Assembly (NCBI GenBank): GCA_903847315.1
Contig: CAINDG010000034.1
Span: forward strand, 1 to 36,966
Source of the DNA: an uncultured Planctomycetota bacterium
GTDB taxonomy: Bacteria > Planctomycetota > Phycisphaerae > Sedimentisphaerales > UBA12454
DNA length: 36,966 bases
Direction: 5' to 3'
Positions within the stretch are counted from its first letter, which is position 1, and every line of letters starts with the position of its first letter. A program made the translations under genes and the position numbers. The notes beneath the pieces are model-generated. The model made no database searches and was not told the DNA's origin. It saw only the letters and a program-made list of their open reading frames with translations. Positions 14,876-20,135 of the stretch are shown here, piece after piece.

Positions 14876-17323
14876 TTAATTATCCAGACGCCAGTCGGCA
14901 ACCCACAACCAGGACTCACAGAAAATTTCCAAATCCTTATAATCAATGGTACCATCATTATTGAGGTCGCAGATGTCGTCGTAGCCGGGCTGTCCCTCTG
15001 ATATCATCCAGGATTCGGCAAGAACATTAAAATCTAGAAAATTAACTACGCCGTCATATGGCAGAAAATCGGCCGGATGGCGATAAAATTCGTCTGCCCC
15101 CATATCAACTCTTGCCGTGCCGTTATGTTCGCTGGCCATTATTCTTGGTTCACCATCGATGTCAGTTTCGGTTGAAGAACTAAAATTGGGGTCGCCCTTA
15201 TTAATGCAAGGCGAACCATATTTTAAATGATAATTGCTTGTGTCTGGGTTTCCAAAACACGGATCGCTGGTGATATTGTGTAAGCCGCCGCCGGTATAAT
15301 TTTGTATGCAATTAAAATGTATTTTTGTAAATGTGTCGCCGACTAAACTGCCGGCATTGTTGCCCCACACAATATTGCTATAGATATTTGGGTCGACGCC
15401 TAGAGAGTAAATACCATACCAGTAATTTTCGGCTATGGTATTATTCCTTATTCGGGTAGAGGAACCACCGCTTATAGATATGCCGCCATCCGAACCATTA
15501 TGATGGATCATATTGTTTATTATAGTGGGAGCACTGCTAATGCCGGATATATATATGCCGTTATATACGTTGTTCCATATATTACAGTGACTTATCGTCG
15601 GATTGGAGCTGGCACAGGTTATTCCATTGCCTCCGGCGATTATCGAAAGGCCTGCAACCACGCTGCCGTTATTATTTAACATATGGATTATTGGATCTCT
15701 TATTTCCACTCCCTTATCGGTCAGTCTTGATGAACCATACAGTCTGGTCCTATCCACAACCGACATATTATTCGGGTCCTGGCCCTTGAGTGTTATGGGC
15801 TTATTGTTAAAATTAATGTTTTCACAATAGTAACCTTCATTCACCTCAATTACATCATTATTATTCGCCTCGTTGACCGCAGGCTGAACACGCCTATACC
15901 ATTTATTTTGCGTTTTATTGTGAACGTTCACTTCGTAAACATGAAGAGGCGTCGGCGTATTGATATTATTAGCTGGGCCGATGCCAAGTCTGCCGTTACT
16001 GCCCTTGCCCCACACCCAGACTGTTCCCCATTTGTCAACTGCAAGATTGTGCCAATAACCGGCCGAAATAAAAACAATATCTTTAAGATAGCCGGTGCTA
16101 TTAGGTCCAACGACCTTTACTGGCAAAGGTGTTGGGAAGTGGTATGTTGTGCCGTTACCAAGTTGACCGTAACTATTATCACCCCATGTGTAAACCCTGC
16201 CTTTGCAGTTGGAATCGTTTGCATCAAATTTCTCAAGGGCCATACAATGGCCTTCGCCCGCCTTTATTGAAATAATATTCCGCAAATTTGCAGTGGGGTG
16301 ATTGGGGTCTTGCTGGCCTGCCAGAACTCTTATGGGCACAGGGCTATCGCCGTCTACCTCGCCATTACCAAGCCTGCCGCCATAGGTATAATCACTGGTA
16401 TCATTATAACCCCATGTATAGACTCTGCCTTGGCAGTTTGGGTCGTTGTGGTCGATTTTCTCAAGCGCCATAGAATGGTCCCAGCCGGCAGCGATAGCAA
16501 TAATATTCTGCAGATAATTTACATCATTAACGCCATGAACCTTGACGGGAGTAGCTATTTTATCAATTACAGTATTATTTATACCAAGTTTGCCGTAACC
16601 GCCGGGATAAAACTCGCCATAAGAATTATCGCCCCACGTATAGACACAGCCGTTGGCATCCAACGCCATCGAATGATGTGCGCCGCCGGATACGGAAACA
16701 ATGTTTGCAAGATAATTCACATCATTAACACCATGAACCTTGATAGGCAGAAGGTTTGAATCTGCTTCAGAACTGCCTTTATTATTTCCGAGCTGGCCGT
16801 AATCGTTAATGCCCCATGACCAGACAAAATGGTTAACATCAACCGCCAAAGAATGTCGCCCGCTTCTGCCGGCGGTTATGGCAACTATATTTTGTAAATA
16901 TGTCGTTTGCATCTGGCCGCCGCGAACCTGAACAGGGACAGCTCTATTCAGCAGGTCGCCAACGCCCAATTGTCCATTACCATTGCCTCCCCATGCCCAG
17001 ACATAACCATTTTCATCCCTCGCCAGCGAATGCAGCCAGCCCGCAGCGATAGCGCTAATATTCTCAAGACAATCGCTCGGGGTATTCATATCACCGTCAT
17101 ATACCGGAACAGGAACATATCTGTCTTCGTATGTGCCGTCGCCAAGCCCGCCAAGATAATTGCGTCCGCAACTCCAGACTTCGTGTGATTCGGTAAGAAT
17201 AAGTGTGTGGTCTTCGCCGCCGGAAACTTTGACGGCAGGGATAGGAGTTAGGGCATTCACTGCCGAAGCTAAACCGGCCAATACAACAATGCCTGCGACT
17301 AATAAAGCCGGCTTCCTGAACAA
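14876..17323 (-). CDS. Secreted RCC1-repeat / beta-helix protein with dockerin-like C-terminus
   Basis: 815 aa from TTG 17323 (AAAGGA 8 nt upstream). Signal peptide: 'LLVAGIVVLAGLASAVNA'. About residues 30-480 are RCC1-type propeller repeats ('ISAIAAGWLHSLARDENG.VWAWG', 'GQLGNG...P..V'). Residues about 490-735 form a right-handed parallel beta-helix of the pectate-lyase type ('AVNEANNNDVIEVNEGYY', 'ISGGSSTRIRNNTIAENYWY'). The tail has two Ca-binding dockerin-like motifs ending in ESW ('DGVVNFLDFNVLAESWM' and 'DLNNDGTIDYKDLEIF'), a marker of Phycisphaerae-type secreted proteins. Probably cell-surface or exported; ligand unknown. Confidence 0.9.
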   Translation of the reverse strand: MFRKPALLVAGIVVLAGLASAVNALTPIPAVKVSGGEDHTLILTESHEVWSCGRNYLGGLGDGTYEDRYVPVPVYDGDMNTPSDCLENISAIAAGWLHSLARDENGYVWAWGGNGNGQLGVGDLLNRAVPVQVRGGQMQTTYLQNIVAITAGRSGRHSLAVDVNHFVWSWGINDYGQLGNNKGSSEADSNLLPIKVHGVNDVNYLANIVSVSGGAHHSMALDANGCVYTWGDNSYGEFYPGGYGKLGINNTVIDKIATPVKVHGVNDVNYLQNIIAIAAGWDHSMALEKIDHNDPNCQGRVYTWGYNDTSDYTYGGRLGNGEVDGDSPVPIRVLAGQQDPNHPTANLRNIISIKAGEGHCMALEKFDANDSNCKGRVYTWGDNSYGQLGNGTTYHFPTPLPVKVVGPNSTGYLKDIVFISAGYWHNLAVDKWGTVWVWGKGSNGRLGIGPANNINTPTPLHVYEVNVHNKTQNKWYRRVQPAVNEANNNDVIEVNEGYYCENINFNNKPITLKGQDPNNMSVVDRTRLYGSSRLTDKGVEIRDPIIHMLNNNGSVVAGLSIIAGGNGITCASSNPTISHCNIWNNVYNGIYISGISSAPTIINNMIHHNGSDGGISISGGSSTRIRNNTIAENYWYGIYSLGVDPNIYSNIVWGNNAGSLVGDTFTKIHFNCIQNYTGGGLHNITSDPCFGNPDTSNYHLKYGSPCINKGDPNFSSSTETDIDGEPRIMASEHNGTARVDMGADEFYRHPADFLPYDGVVNFLDFNVLAESWMISEGQPGYDDICDLNNDGTIDYKDLEIFCESWLWVADWRLDN

Positions 17324-17897: not shown

Positions 17898-18380
17898 TTG
17901 TACAGGCGTCTGCGATACGGCTATCCCTTTAGGCGTATTCGTCTGTCGCGAGGCCAATATGCAATCGTAGATGTGGAAGATTTTGAAAAGCTCAGCAAAC
18001 ACAAATGGTGCGCCATCCCAAAACGCGACACCTTTTACGCCAAACGCTATGGCCTGAGAAACGGCAGATATACTACAATAGCTATGCATCAGCAGATTAT
18101 GCGTCCCCCTGAAGGATTATTTGTTGACCATGAAAACCATAACGGGCTGGACAACAGAAAAGCGAATTTAAGAATCGCCACACCCGCCCAAAACGCCTGC
18201 AACAGCAGAAAGAGCGCAAACCCCTGCAGCTCAAAATACAAAGGCGTCTCTTACGACAATGACAAAAATCTATGGCGGGCTTATATAACCTATAATGGAA
18301 AGCGAACATATTTAGGCAGGTTTGAAAACGAGGAAGACGCCGCGCGGGCCTACGACAAAGCCGCACAGTTGTACTTTTGA
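17898..18380 (+). CDS. HNH endonuclease with AP2 DNA-binding domain (unusual start, premature UGA)
   Basis: 160 aa from the only standard in-frame start, TTG 17898. HNH domain at residues about 64-92 (His64; 'DHENHNGLDNRKANLR' with Asp77-His78 and Asn90). AP2/ERF domain from about residue 113 ('YKGVSYDNDKNLWRAYI', 'YLGRFENEEDAARAYDKAA'). Such proteins are homing-type nucleases of phages and mobile DNA. Two oddities: the frame is open and protein-like upstream to 17820 ('IEITIPIKFEVKIRPPLANW'), where GAGGAG sits 7 nt before an ATC codon; and the stop TGA 18378-18380 interrupts the AP2 domain where a Gly codon is expected. Either a decaying gene or one with non-standard initiation. Confidence 0.78.
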   Translation: MYRRLRYGYPFRRIRLSRGQYAIVDVEDFEKLSKHKWCAIPKRDTFYAKRYGLRNGRYTTIAMHQQIMRPPEGLFVDHENHNGLDNRKANLRIATPAQNACNSRKSANPCSSKYKGVSYDNDKNLWRAYITYNGKRTYLGRFENEEDAARAYDKAAQLYF

Positions 18381-18440
18381 AAATTCGCTTCTTTGAATTT
18401 CCCCGACAAATCGCAATCCAAAAAACATTTAGCCCCTTGA
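18381..18440 (+). pseudogene. Detached C-terminal tail of the HNH-AP2 gene after an in-frame UGA
   Basis: The same reading frame continues after TGA 18378-18380 as 'KFASLNFPDKSQ...' to TGA 18438-18440. AP2 domains normally end 'YFGEFAxLNFP', so the family end is intact apart from Gly to stop (GGA to TGA) and Glu to Lys. One base change explains the stop; no frameshift is needed. Confidence 0.65.
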
Positions 18441-18452
18441 TTTATCAAGGGG
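18433..18452 (+). terminator. Terminator-like hairpin at the end of the HNH-AP2 gene
   Basis: Perfect CCCCTTGA / TCAAGGGG arms with a TTTA loop, overlapping the original stop codon at 18438-18440. The trailing T run is poor, so termination may be weak. Confidence 0.5.
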
Positions 18453-18487
18453 TTGGATTAACATAAACAAAACAGAGAGACAAGAAA

Positions 18488-18778
18488 ATGAAGCGATATT
18501 ATATTTATATACTGGCAAGCAAAAGAAACGGTGCTCTCTATATTGGCGTAACTAATAACTTAATTGGCAGAGTAAGCGAACACAAAAACAATAGCATTGA
18601 TGGCTTTACCAAAAGTCGCGGCATTCACACTCTTGTCTACTATGAGGAATTTGATGATATCCGCAAAGCCATTGCCCGGGAAAAACAATTAAAAAAATGG
18701 CCAAGGCAATGGAAGATAAGATTAATTGAAAAGGATAATTTAGAATGGAAAGATTTATATCCTGATTTATCATCATGA
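18488..18778 (+). CDS. GIY-YIG family nuclease-like protein (UPF0213 type)
   Basis: 96 aa, a single GIY-YIG domain: 'YYIYILASKRNGALYIGVTN' contains the two motif halves (YIYI...LYIG), followed by the Arg in 'LIGRVSEHK', then 'GFTKSRGIHTLVYYEEF' and 'AIAREKQLKKW', which includes the conserved Glu. Such small proteins are widespread; they are related to homing and repair nucleases, but most lack a tested activity. Preceded by GAGAG at about 9 nt. It lies between the HNH-AP2 gene and the DpnI operon, forming a cluster of DNA-acting genes. Confidence 0.9.
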   Translation: MKRYYIYILASKRNGALYIGVTNNLIGRVSEHKNNSIDGFTKSRGIHTLVYYEEFDDIRKAIAREKQLKKWPRQWKIRLIEKDNLEWKDLYPDLSS

Positions 18779-18860: not shown

Positions 18861-19049
18861 CTAATTCAAATTATCAAAAAAATCTTCTTCAATAATTCCA
18901 GTCCCAATTAATTTATAACATTCCTCCGGATGAGCCATGAAGAGTTTAGATAGAATATCTTCAAGAAGTTTTGCATCGTTGGGAAAGTCCTGTTTTCCAT
19001 CCCATTCGTCAGCAATTCTGTTAGCAATAGCCCTTGCCCATTTATTCAT
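18861..19049 (-). CDS. Small protein, third gene of the DpnI-like operon
   Basis: 62 aa from ATG 19049, chosen because it overlaps the nuclease stop as ATGA; an in-frame ATG at 19061 would add 4 residues. Soluble, acidic, helical: 'MNKWARAIANRIADEWDGKQ', 'LLEDILSKLFMAHPEECYKL' and an acidic end (EEDFFDNLN). I recognise no family. The coupled translation suggests a job with the nuclease, such as a regulator or inhibitor. It is not obviously DpnD of the pneumococcal DpnI locus. Confidence 0.7.
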   Translation of the reverse strand: MNKWARAIANRIADEWDGKQDFPNDAKLLEDILSKLFMAHPEECYKLIGTGIIEEDFFDNLN

Positions 19050-19819
19050 TTTTTCGCCCATCGATAAAACCCTCGCCTGACAAATTCTAAATATCCCAAA
19101 TCTCGTAAAACCTGCAATTGTTGCCTTATCTTATCTCTGACATGATAATTTTCCGGGTGTCTTTCGGATAAAGCACTTTCAAATAAATAAGCATCATCTA
19201 AAGTAAACTCTGATTTCTTTATCGAACGCAGGACTGTAAGAACATCAAGCGTCCAACCCCTTGTTTTCGTTGATAAGTCGCTTAACGGCTGAACCAAACG
19301 AAATCTCTCTCTGACTTTCCCTTTCGGTGATATGAATCCTGAATTAATTACATTAATCCTGCCTTCGGGCGGAACCATATCGAGAATTATATTACATCCC
19401 ACCCACCCGGCGCGCCGTGCACTTGAACTCAATGGTTTTCTTGCTTCGATAGCCGACCTCGGCAGACAGAATTTTGGTATGATTAAAAGGTCTTTAACTA
19501 TCGCGCCAATATTATCATAACTAAGTAGCAAAAAATGCGGCAATTGGTCTCGTGTAATTGCCCTTATCATGGCATCATAAGCGGCATCGACTATTTTCCT
19601 GCCAAAAGGTTTTGATACCGCTTTAAGTTGATATTGCGAATCGCACCCGGAACAGACAAAATCTACAGCTTCCGTCCCTGTTCTGGTTTTATCTAAACGG
19701 TCTGAGGTACACGCCGGACAATACATATTTTCAAAGGCCCATGCCTCCGTTATGACCCGCGCCCGTTGCGATGCGCTTTTATATCCCTGTGCCTCTTTAA
19801 TCGGTAAATTTAGAATCAT
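19046..19819 (-). CDS. dpnI: DpnI-family endonuclease (methyl-directed GATC restriction)
   Basis: 257 aa; pneumococcal DpnI has 254. Similar along the full length: 'YKSASQRARVITEAW', zinc ribbon Cys34/Cys37 and Cys56/Cys59, catalytic Asp53, Lys66, then 'RKPLSSSARRAGWVGCNI' (DpnI has 'RKPLAPTARRAGWIGCNI') and the C-terminal winged helix ('RGWTLDVLTVL', 'SEFTLDDAYLFES', 'KIRQQLQVLRDLGYLEF'). DpnI cuts G(6mA)TC, using both domains to read methylated DNA. Position 64 is Gln instead of Glu, a change in the metal-binding E-x-K; activity is probable but untested. The specificity is inferred from the family. Second gene of an operon with ATGA overlaps on both sides. Confidence 0.95.
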   Translation of the reverse strand: MILNLPIKEAQGYKSASQRARVITEAWAFENMYCPACTSDRLDKTRTGTEAVDFVCSGCDSQYQLKAVSKPFGRKIVDAAYDAMIRAITRDQLPHFLLLSYDNIGAIVKDLLIIPKFCLPRSAIEARKPLSSSARRAGWVGCNIILDMVPPEGRINVINSGFISPKGKVRERFRLVQPLSDLSTKTRGWTLDVLTVLRSIKKSEFTLDDAYLFESALSERHPENYHVRDKIRQQLQVLRDLGYLEFVRRGFYRWAKK

Positions 19820-19980
19820 TGCTTTTTATATCTTATAAATGCTTCAACCGCTTTATCGAAATCGCCAAAGGCAAATTCTGCAAGCTCCTCTATTGTGGCA
19901 TTTACCGCCACTTCATCAAATTCTTTGTTAAGGAATTCTAGGAAACCCGAATTTGTTTCATATCGTTTAGCTTTATCCAT
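19816..19980 (-). CDS. Small protein, first gene of the DpnI-like operon
   Basis: 54 aa from ATG 19980; its TGA overlaps the nuclease ATG (ATGA). Acidic and helical: 'MDKAKRYETNSGFLEFLNKE', then 'TIEELAEFAFGDFDKAVEAF'. No family recognised and no resemblance to the Dam fragment upstream. The ATG lies 8 nt past the -10 box, so the mRNA would be nearly leaderless and no Shine-Dalgarno is seen. The overlap makes it likely to be a real gene; it may control or assist the nuclease. Confidence 0.7.
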   Translation of the reverse strand: MDKAKRYETNSGFLEFLNKEFDEVAVNATIEELAEFAFGDFDKAVEAFIRYKKQ

Positions 19981-19987
19981 GCCACAG

Positions 19988-20016
19988 ATTATTGATCAAC
20001 CAAAAAGCCTTGTCAA
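19988..20016 (-). promoter_or_regulatory. Promoter of the DpnI-like operon containing a GATC site
   Basis: Minus strand: TTGACA (20016-20011), 17-bp spacer, AATAAT (19993-19988), then ATG at 19980. A GATC (19994-19997, within TGATCA) directly abuts the -10 box. The TGA stop of the Dam fragment lies within the -35 box. Confidence 0.6.
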
Positions 20017-20135
20017 TTAAATATCAAAAGTCTGTTTGGCAGACGTTTTTCAATCTCGTCAAGAAGTTGTGTTTTACCTCCTGCCCATTTCAGAAATGGT
20101 TTAGCCGTTATTGTTTTTTCTATAGTTGATATCAT
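20013..20135 (-). pseudogene. dam: Truncated Dam-type adenine methyltransferase (N-terminal 40 codons)
   Basis: ATG 20135 to TGA 20015-20013, 40 aa. '[18 protein letters not shown]' is the hallmark N-terminus of Dam/DpnM enzymes (FLKWAGGK, part of the S-adenosylmethionine site), followed by 'EKRLPN'. Intact enzymes are about 270-280 aa; everything after about residue 34 is missing, including 'EPFxGGG' and the DPPY catalytic motif. The fragment runs into the promoter of the DpnI-like operon, so a deletion or cassette swap seems to have joined them. Confidence 0.8.

Follow-up and report, generated by a model that had tools for sequence, protein, structure and literature searches.

A 40-codon open reading frame (dam') in front of a DpnI homologue, found in an uncultured Planctomycetota bacterium of the order Sedimentisphaerales, is likely the left-hand scar of a swap in which a GATC restriction-modification operon gave way to a DpnI-type cassette: the position at which relatives have a restriction system that methylates GATC is taken up by what is probably a cutter of GATC-methylated DNA. 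The stretch of DNA analysed (the window; 36,966 nucleotides) belongs to genome G000, where G-numbers denote genomes and L-numbers loci of the comparison set. The features that bear on the argument are listed in Table 1.

Table 1. Coordinates of the dam remnant and of the adjoining cassette in the window.
Feature	Position	Strand	Description
dam' stump	20013..20135	minus	40-codon ORF; match to TIGR00571, likeness to the Dam of G006
Dam-derived part of dam'	20135..20031	minus	about 35 codons, then five junction codons and the stop
Cassette promoter	19988..20016	minus	-35 TTGACA (20016..20011), 17-nt spacer, -10 AATAAT (19993..19988)
Promoter GATC	19997..19994	minus	between -35 and -10
orf54	19816..19980	minus	small acidic protein of 54 aa; overlaps the dpnI start (ATGA)
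DpnI homologue (dpnI)	19046..19819	minus	257 aa; PD-(D/E)XK domain with a winged helix; QLK variant
orf66	18861..19061	minus	final gene of the apparent operon; overlaps the end of dpnI; no family

The earlier note described the first 40 codons of a Dam-type methyltransferase on the same strand as a DpnI-like operon and 32 bp before it. Identity and position are confirmed: dam' matches the NCBIfam dam profile TIGR00571 (E 1.6e-7), its N-terminal FxKWAGGK SAM-binding motif lines up with the start of Dam, and 32 bp separate its end from the start of orf54; the match to Pfam PF02086 falls below threshold (E 0.0046). The extent is shorter than described. Start codons of dam' and of the intact Dams of relatives coincide, identity to the intact Dam of congener G006 – with which dam' clusters in the tree (support 0.86) – is 77% over 35 codons, and homology ends at about codon 35 (RLPN), the final five codons (LLIFN) being non-Dam. 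Since only positions 2-26 of the 267 in TIGR00571 are present, dam' is a remnant and not a methylase; EPFxGGG and DPPY, the motifs of the full methyltransferase domain, are absent from the 40-codon frame. A second Dam was not found in the window's genome (2.44 Mb, 97% complete). A chance reading frame is ruled out by the E value, the position and the recurrence of such remnants, and because comparable stumps occur in independent assemblies (70 codons in G459, 29 in G450) dam' is not an artefact of assembly either.

A search of the same order showed that it carries GATC-type restriction operons with the layout (C)-dam-R-M2, where C is a controller gene, dam is the first gene of dam-R-M2 and M2 encodes a DNA methylase (PF01555; PADLOC MTase_II) whose motif I precedes THPPY, a motif order that does not look like that of DpnA. 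Intact dam-R-M2 was first seen in nine relatives; across the order Dam has a scattered distribution, with 17 of 59 genomes above the cut-off. Because controller-gene remnants precede dam in G022 and G008, the ancestral layout was probably C-dam-R-M2. The R slot is variable: it is occupied by DpnII (PF04556, E ~1e-99), by MutH/Sau3AI-like enzymes (PF02976), by DUF6996/6997 proteins, by a 405-aa protein without family, and also by nucleases whose winged helix is of the DpnI type. DUF6996/6997 and 405-aa proteins lie between dam and M2 at L064:9480-10250, L069:6584-7357 and L068:2532-3749; they are candidate GATC endonucleases, because the same position is held elsewhere by DpnII or MutH-like enzymes. 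The window's genome contains another putative restriction-modification pair (L085:1177-3216, on G000:C26), a 379-aa methylase (~30% identical to M2) with a 298-aa neighbour.

Winged-helix nuclease loci come in a Form A and a Form B. Form A (four loci) reads C-nuclease-M2, with dam absent and M2 without visible break; the nuclease is of the DpnI type in G475 (where the contig stops within M2) and G537, while G452 and G471 have the PLD-winged-helix (PLD-wH) type. These operons are a puzzle, since m6A-dependent nucleases would be expected to stand alone: at L079:809-1946, L037:5007-7718, L138 and L146 one operon holds a controller, a winged-helix nuclease of either the DpnI or the PLD type, and an unbroken M2. 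Form B consists of a dam stump, a promoter, orf54, the nuclease and a 3' remnant of M2. The window belongs here, with M2 gone, as do G459 (PLD-wH, M2 3' remnant), G450 (PLD-wH, M2 3' remnant, the stump following a complete C gene) and G045 (DpnI type, M2 3' remnant). In the window, G459 and G045 the breakpoint falls directly before the cassette promoter; in G450 a 1.9-kb insertion parts stump from promoter, and ParB-like and phosphoribosyltransferase-like genes (named by eye) lie between the two (L166:4610-6327). At the canonical dpnI locus of G034 a MutH-like R remnant directly follows dpnI. In G023 (L073) dpnI sits between purD and a glycosyltransferase gene, where the congener G019 (L069) has dam-R-M2, the flanking proteins being 95 and 93% identical; the likeness to the exchangeable DpnI/DpnII cassettes, drawn in the earlier note, thus has its counterpart at one chromosomal site.

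If dam had merely decayed, deleted for unrelated reasons, and a DpnI cassette had landed or drifted nearby by chance, then neither the patchiness of Dam in the order nor the lack of a right-hand scar in the window would be surprising. Such a coincidence is nonetheless very improbable: stump and cassette share a strand and lie 32 bp apart, the breakpoint is placed alike at three loci, scars of dam or M2 repeat at sister loci, and G019 and G023 show exchange at the same site. Exchange of a cassette accounts for these regularities. The mobile unit would comprise the promoter with its internal GATC, orf54 and the DpnI-type nuclease; it would have replaced most of a (C-)dam-R-M2 operon, leaving only the 5' end of dam, while the 3' end of M2, still seen at sister loci, would have been lost at the window. 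Short dam and M2 ends may have served as recombination arms. Since Dam and the nuclease are incompatible, such a swap must remove or break dam, and the cell would have moved from methylating GATC to keeping GATC unmethylated, together with a nuclease attacking GATC-methylated DNA. Directly observed are the homology of the stump, a genome in which neither Dam nor a close M2 was found, the recurrence of stumps and remnants among sister loci and the same-site exchange in a sister genus. Against exchange, the window carries no M2 remnant, and synteny between its site and a dam-R-M2 site in congeners is lacking: alternation of nuclease and dam at one site is seen in G019/G023, and the event in the window is not seen directly. 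In a search for an empty site, the left flank of the window's cassette was not syntenic in congeners G001-G004. The suggestion that methylase loss marks a switch from methylating to anti-methyl defence thus holds in part. Relatives' dam-R-M2 operons have been replaced by DpnI-type nucleases, and intact dam and live nuclease exclude each other at most loci (below); the unit lost would be a dam-R-M2 operon rather than dam by itself, and the stump would be a recombination junction.

Mutual exclusion was judged by gene integrity at the locus, whole-genome counts of dam and dpnI being too small for statistics. Next to a live winged-helix nuclease the adjacent dam is missing or reduced to a stump of 29-70 codons in seven of eight loci. 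An adjacent dam is present at 16 of 17 loci with DpnII, MutH-like, DUF6997 or 405-aa enzymes and at one of eight winged-helix loci (Fisher p 1.3e-4, for loci that are not independent and with kinship uncorrected). Loci with a HARE-HTH R enzyme, taken as a control, have also lost dam (present in 0 of 7), so absence of dam alone is not specific to winged-helix nucleases, which tells against exchange. Stronger evidence than these counts is the reciprocal case in G022: the same promoter and orf54 come after an intact dam-R-M2, and the PLD-wH gene there is interrupted by in-frame stops, the first at codon 19. A PLD-wH gene shrunk to a stop-ridden start follows orf54 at L068:4786-5063 and at L132.

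The exception is G045, in which an open dam of 318 codons lies beside the dpnI arrangement closest to that of the window, a further point against exchange. The conserved C-terminal tail of this dam (INELLITN or similar in relatives) is swapped in frame for a second dam fragment that ends in QKYQQVH and a stop, and the C-terminal 51 residues of its AlphaFold model (11 sequences) are below pLDDT 50, too low to bear on whether the swapped tail disables the enzyme. Because the upstream part and the M2 remnant match the dam-DpnII-M2 operon of G460 (83.7 and 88% nucleotide identity), and the junction matches the stump of G459 (84.7%), the probable event is recombination of a nuclease cassette, stump included, into a dam operon. 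The claim that an active Dam and a G(6mA)TC-cutting nuclease cannot coexist agrees with seven of the eight winged-helix loci and is strained by the open recombinant dam of G045: an intact dam beside the same dpnI, looked for in relatives, occurs formally once, and weakens the claim without overturning it, since that dam is recombinant and its tail replaced.

The G045 recombination, which joined a stump to a full dam, also speaks for the notion that the stump is kept for use, either as a leader peptide of the cassette or as a homology arm by which the cassette stays exchangeable. Three or four loci have such stumps, all open and with no frameshift along their length. Their lengths differ (29, 35 and 70 codons), however, the G450 stump is cut off from the promoter by the insertion, and the stump in the window is so short that, after a recent loss, it could look intact by chance; a retained function is improbable.

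As part of the presumed exchange unit, the promoter deserves attention. A motif of the form TTGACN-N11-TTGATC-WATAAT lies upstream of orf54 in the window (where the -35 box overlaps the stop codon of dam'), G045, G459, G450 and G022; at the sixth locus, G497, orf54 and a dead PLD-wH gene are present without it. The promoter GATC is thus kept in five of six loci, in genomes that are GATC-poor. Among four distinct promoter sequences one of 11 spacer columns is invariant, compared with six of six TTGATC columns (p 6e-4). The motif occurs once in 151 kb of G000, and its GATC is the sole one within 18861-20135. GATC in G000 reaches 0.11 of the expected count (59 against 530; sampled contigs, 151 kb), the lowest of the 16 four-base palindromes; depletion is similar in G045, G034 and G007, and CTAG is rare as well. 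GATC depletion was dropped as a clue to the specificity of the nuclease, being strong in genomes where no system was detected (G003, 0.20; G011, 0.00) and weak in some that have a system (G019, 0.64). Retention of GATC where other spacer bases diverged, in genomes that purge it, is the ground for a more tentative proposal: the promoter GATC is possibly a methylation sensor carried by the cassette itself. On this hypothesis Dam methylation of the promoter GATC would silence the nuclease on entry of the cassette into a dam+ cell; the silencing would end only once dam has been replaced and methyl marks diluted, making safe an otherwise suicidal exchange. Methylation control of this kind is conceivable, though we rate it well below the swap itself.

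Homologues of orf54 are present in seven of 161 genomes of the order and mostly adjoin a winged-helix nuclease or a remnant of one; for orf66 there was neither a Pfam match nor a homologue at comparable loci. Just past orf66, on the opposite strand, lie AP2/HNH and GIY-YIG endonuclease ORFs (17898-18778), possible mobile elements at the edge of the cassette. Further on, at 14876-17323, is an 815-aa protein with RCC1 repeats, a beta helix and a dockerin.

The product of dpnI matches PF06044 (E 1.5e-54; 184.9 bits against a curated cut-off of 26.7) and PF17726 (E 1.6e-27; 95.9 bits, cut-off 23), and DpnI itself (4esj, E 1.8e-58) at 37-39% identity. Its AlphaFold model (pLDDT 74) has the DpnI fold, with 4kyw and 4esj the best Foldseek matches (E 4e-25). 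Together with three relatives it forms a clade of QLK variants, monophyletic with support 1.00 in a small tree. The gene is under purifying selection (dN ~0.25, dS saturated); close relatives were not found in viral contigs, plasmids or phages, the plasmid matches being Neisseria drg-like at 33%, plus short winged-helix matches. Catalytic D53 and K66 are present, and every one of the four clade members has Gln for E64, a departure from D53-E64-x-K66; QxK is found in other active PD-(D/E)XK nucleases. With contacts and numbering taken from PMC4117772, the GATC-contact and methyl-pocket residues S17, Q18, R126, L129, R135, W138 and G140 are all kept, and a further contact, N48, is Gly in three of the four clade members, the window's among them.

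The substitutions at E64 and N48 count against exchange, as does the resemblance of C-dpnI-M2 in G475 and G537, with M2 unbroken, to an ordinary restriction-modification operon. They raise the alternative that the QLK clade is the R half of a C-R-M2 system cutting DNA that M2 has left unmodified, the window copy being a leftover that lost both methylases and must be weak, repressed or inactive. The C-PLD-wH-M2 operons of G452 and G471, the open dam beside dpnI in G045 and the fact that controller proteins usually serve R enzymes able to cut the host point the same way. This alternative is unlikely all the same. Direct contacts to GATC and the methyl pocket are kept except N48; a controller also precedes dam (the remnants in G022 and G008), so that C-dpnI-M2 can arise by replacement of dam-R between C and M2; and the tested PD-(D/E)XK-wH, HNH-wH and GIY-YIG-wH fusions prefer Gm6ATC, while toxicity of PLD-wH is Dam-dependent (PMC11037411). 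Moreover, as neither Dam nor a close M2 was found in the window's genome, the window nuclease has no protecting methylase adjacent, as expected of a stand-alone type IV/IIM enzyme, whereas in G475 and G537 a methylase adjoins the nuclease gene. With ~950 GATC sites in that genome (extrapolated from 59 in 151 kb), the host is therefore unlikely to tolerate a cutter of plain GATC, yet dpnI is intact and under selection; a cutter of Gm6ATC would be tolerable. We infer that the window nuclease is probably active and cuts G6mATC. Anti-methyl activity itself remains putative, given E64Q throughout the clade and the unbroken M2 and controller gene adjoining two of its four members.

Comparison with known systems places the window among several precedents. 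In S. pneumoniae a strain has either a methyl-cutting nuclease or a dam-type restriction-modification operon with a second methylase (PMC3573125), an either/or occupancy that G019 and G023 repeat; the present loci differ in their variable R slot and in scars that persist at several loci. The m6A-dependent type IV endonucleases fused to winged helices correspond in architecture, the window encoding a PD-(D/E)XK-wH and sister loci PLD-wH proteins (PMC11037411). Of such fusions 87% lack a neighbouring methylase, and methylases directly adjacent to some PD-(D/E)XK-wH genes are inactivated by frameshift (PMC11037411). Here, in contrast, four loci have a controller and an unbroken M2, and at four more the methylases are broken or missing: set against the published frameshifts, the unbroken C and M2 of Form A remain a puzzle (PMC11037411). 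The closest precedent besides DpnI/DpnII is Neisseria, in which a DpnI-family Gm6ATC nuclease gene (drg) is inserted in dam (PMC4269198): a truncated dam is left in N. meningitidis MC58, 053442, Z2491 and alpha710, and dam+/drg- and dam-/drg+ are mutually exclusive (PMC4269198, PMC516771). Both cases pair a DpnI-family nuclease gene with a truncated dam; the Neisseria site is leuS/dam, while here it is a (C)-dam-R-M2 operon, orf54 and a promoter containing GATC form part of the unit, and QLK replaces ELK. The DpnI/DpnII and drg/dam exchanges raise the question of how a cell can trade GATC methylation for a cutter of methylated GATC without killing itself. Natural intermediates of such a trade can be found in this order: stumps of dam, a live dam adjoining a dead nuclease, a dam-dpnI pair of recombinant origin and an exchange at one and the same site. 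New here is the GATC in the cassette promoter, possibly a methylation sensor and, if truly so, a simple and testable mechanism for safe exchange.
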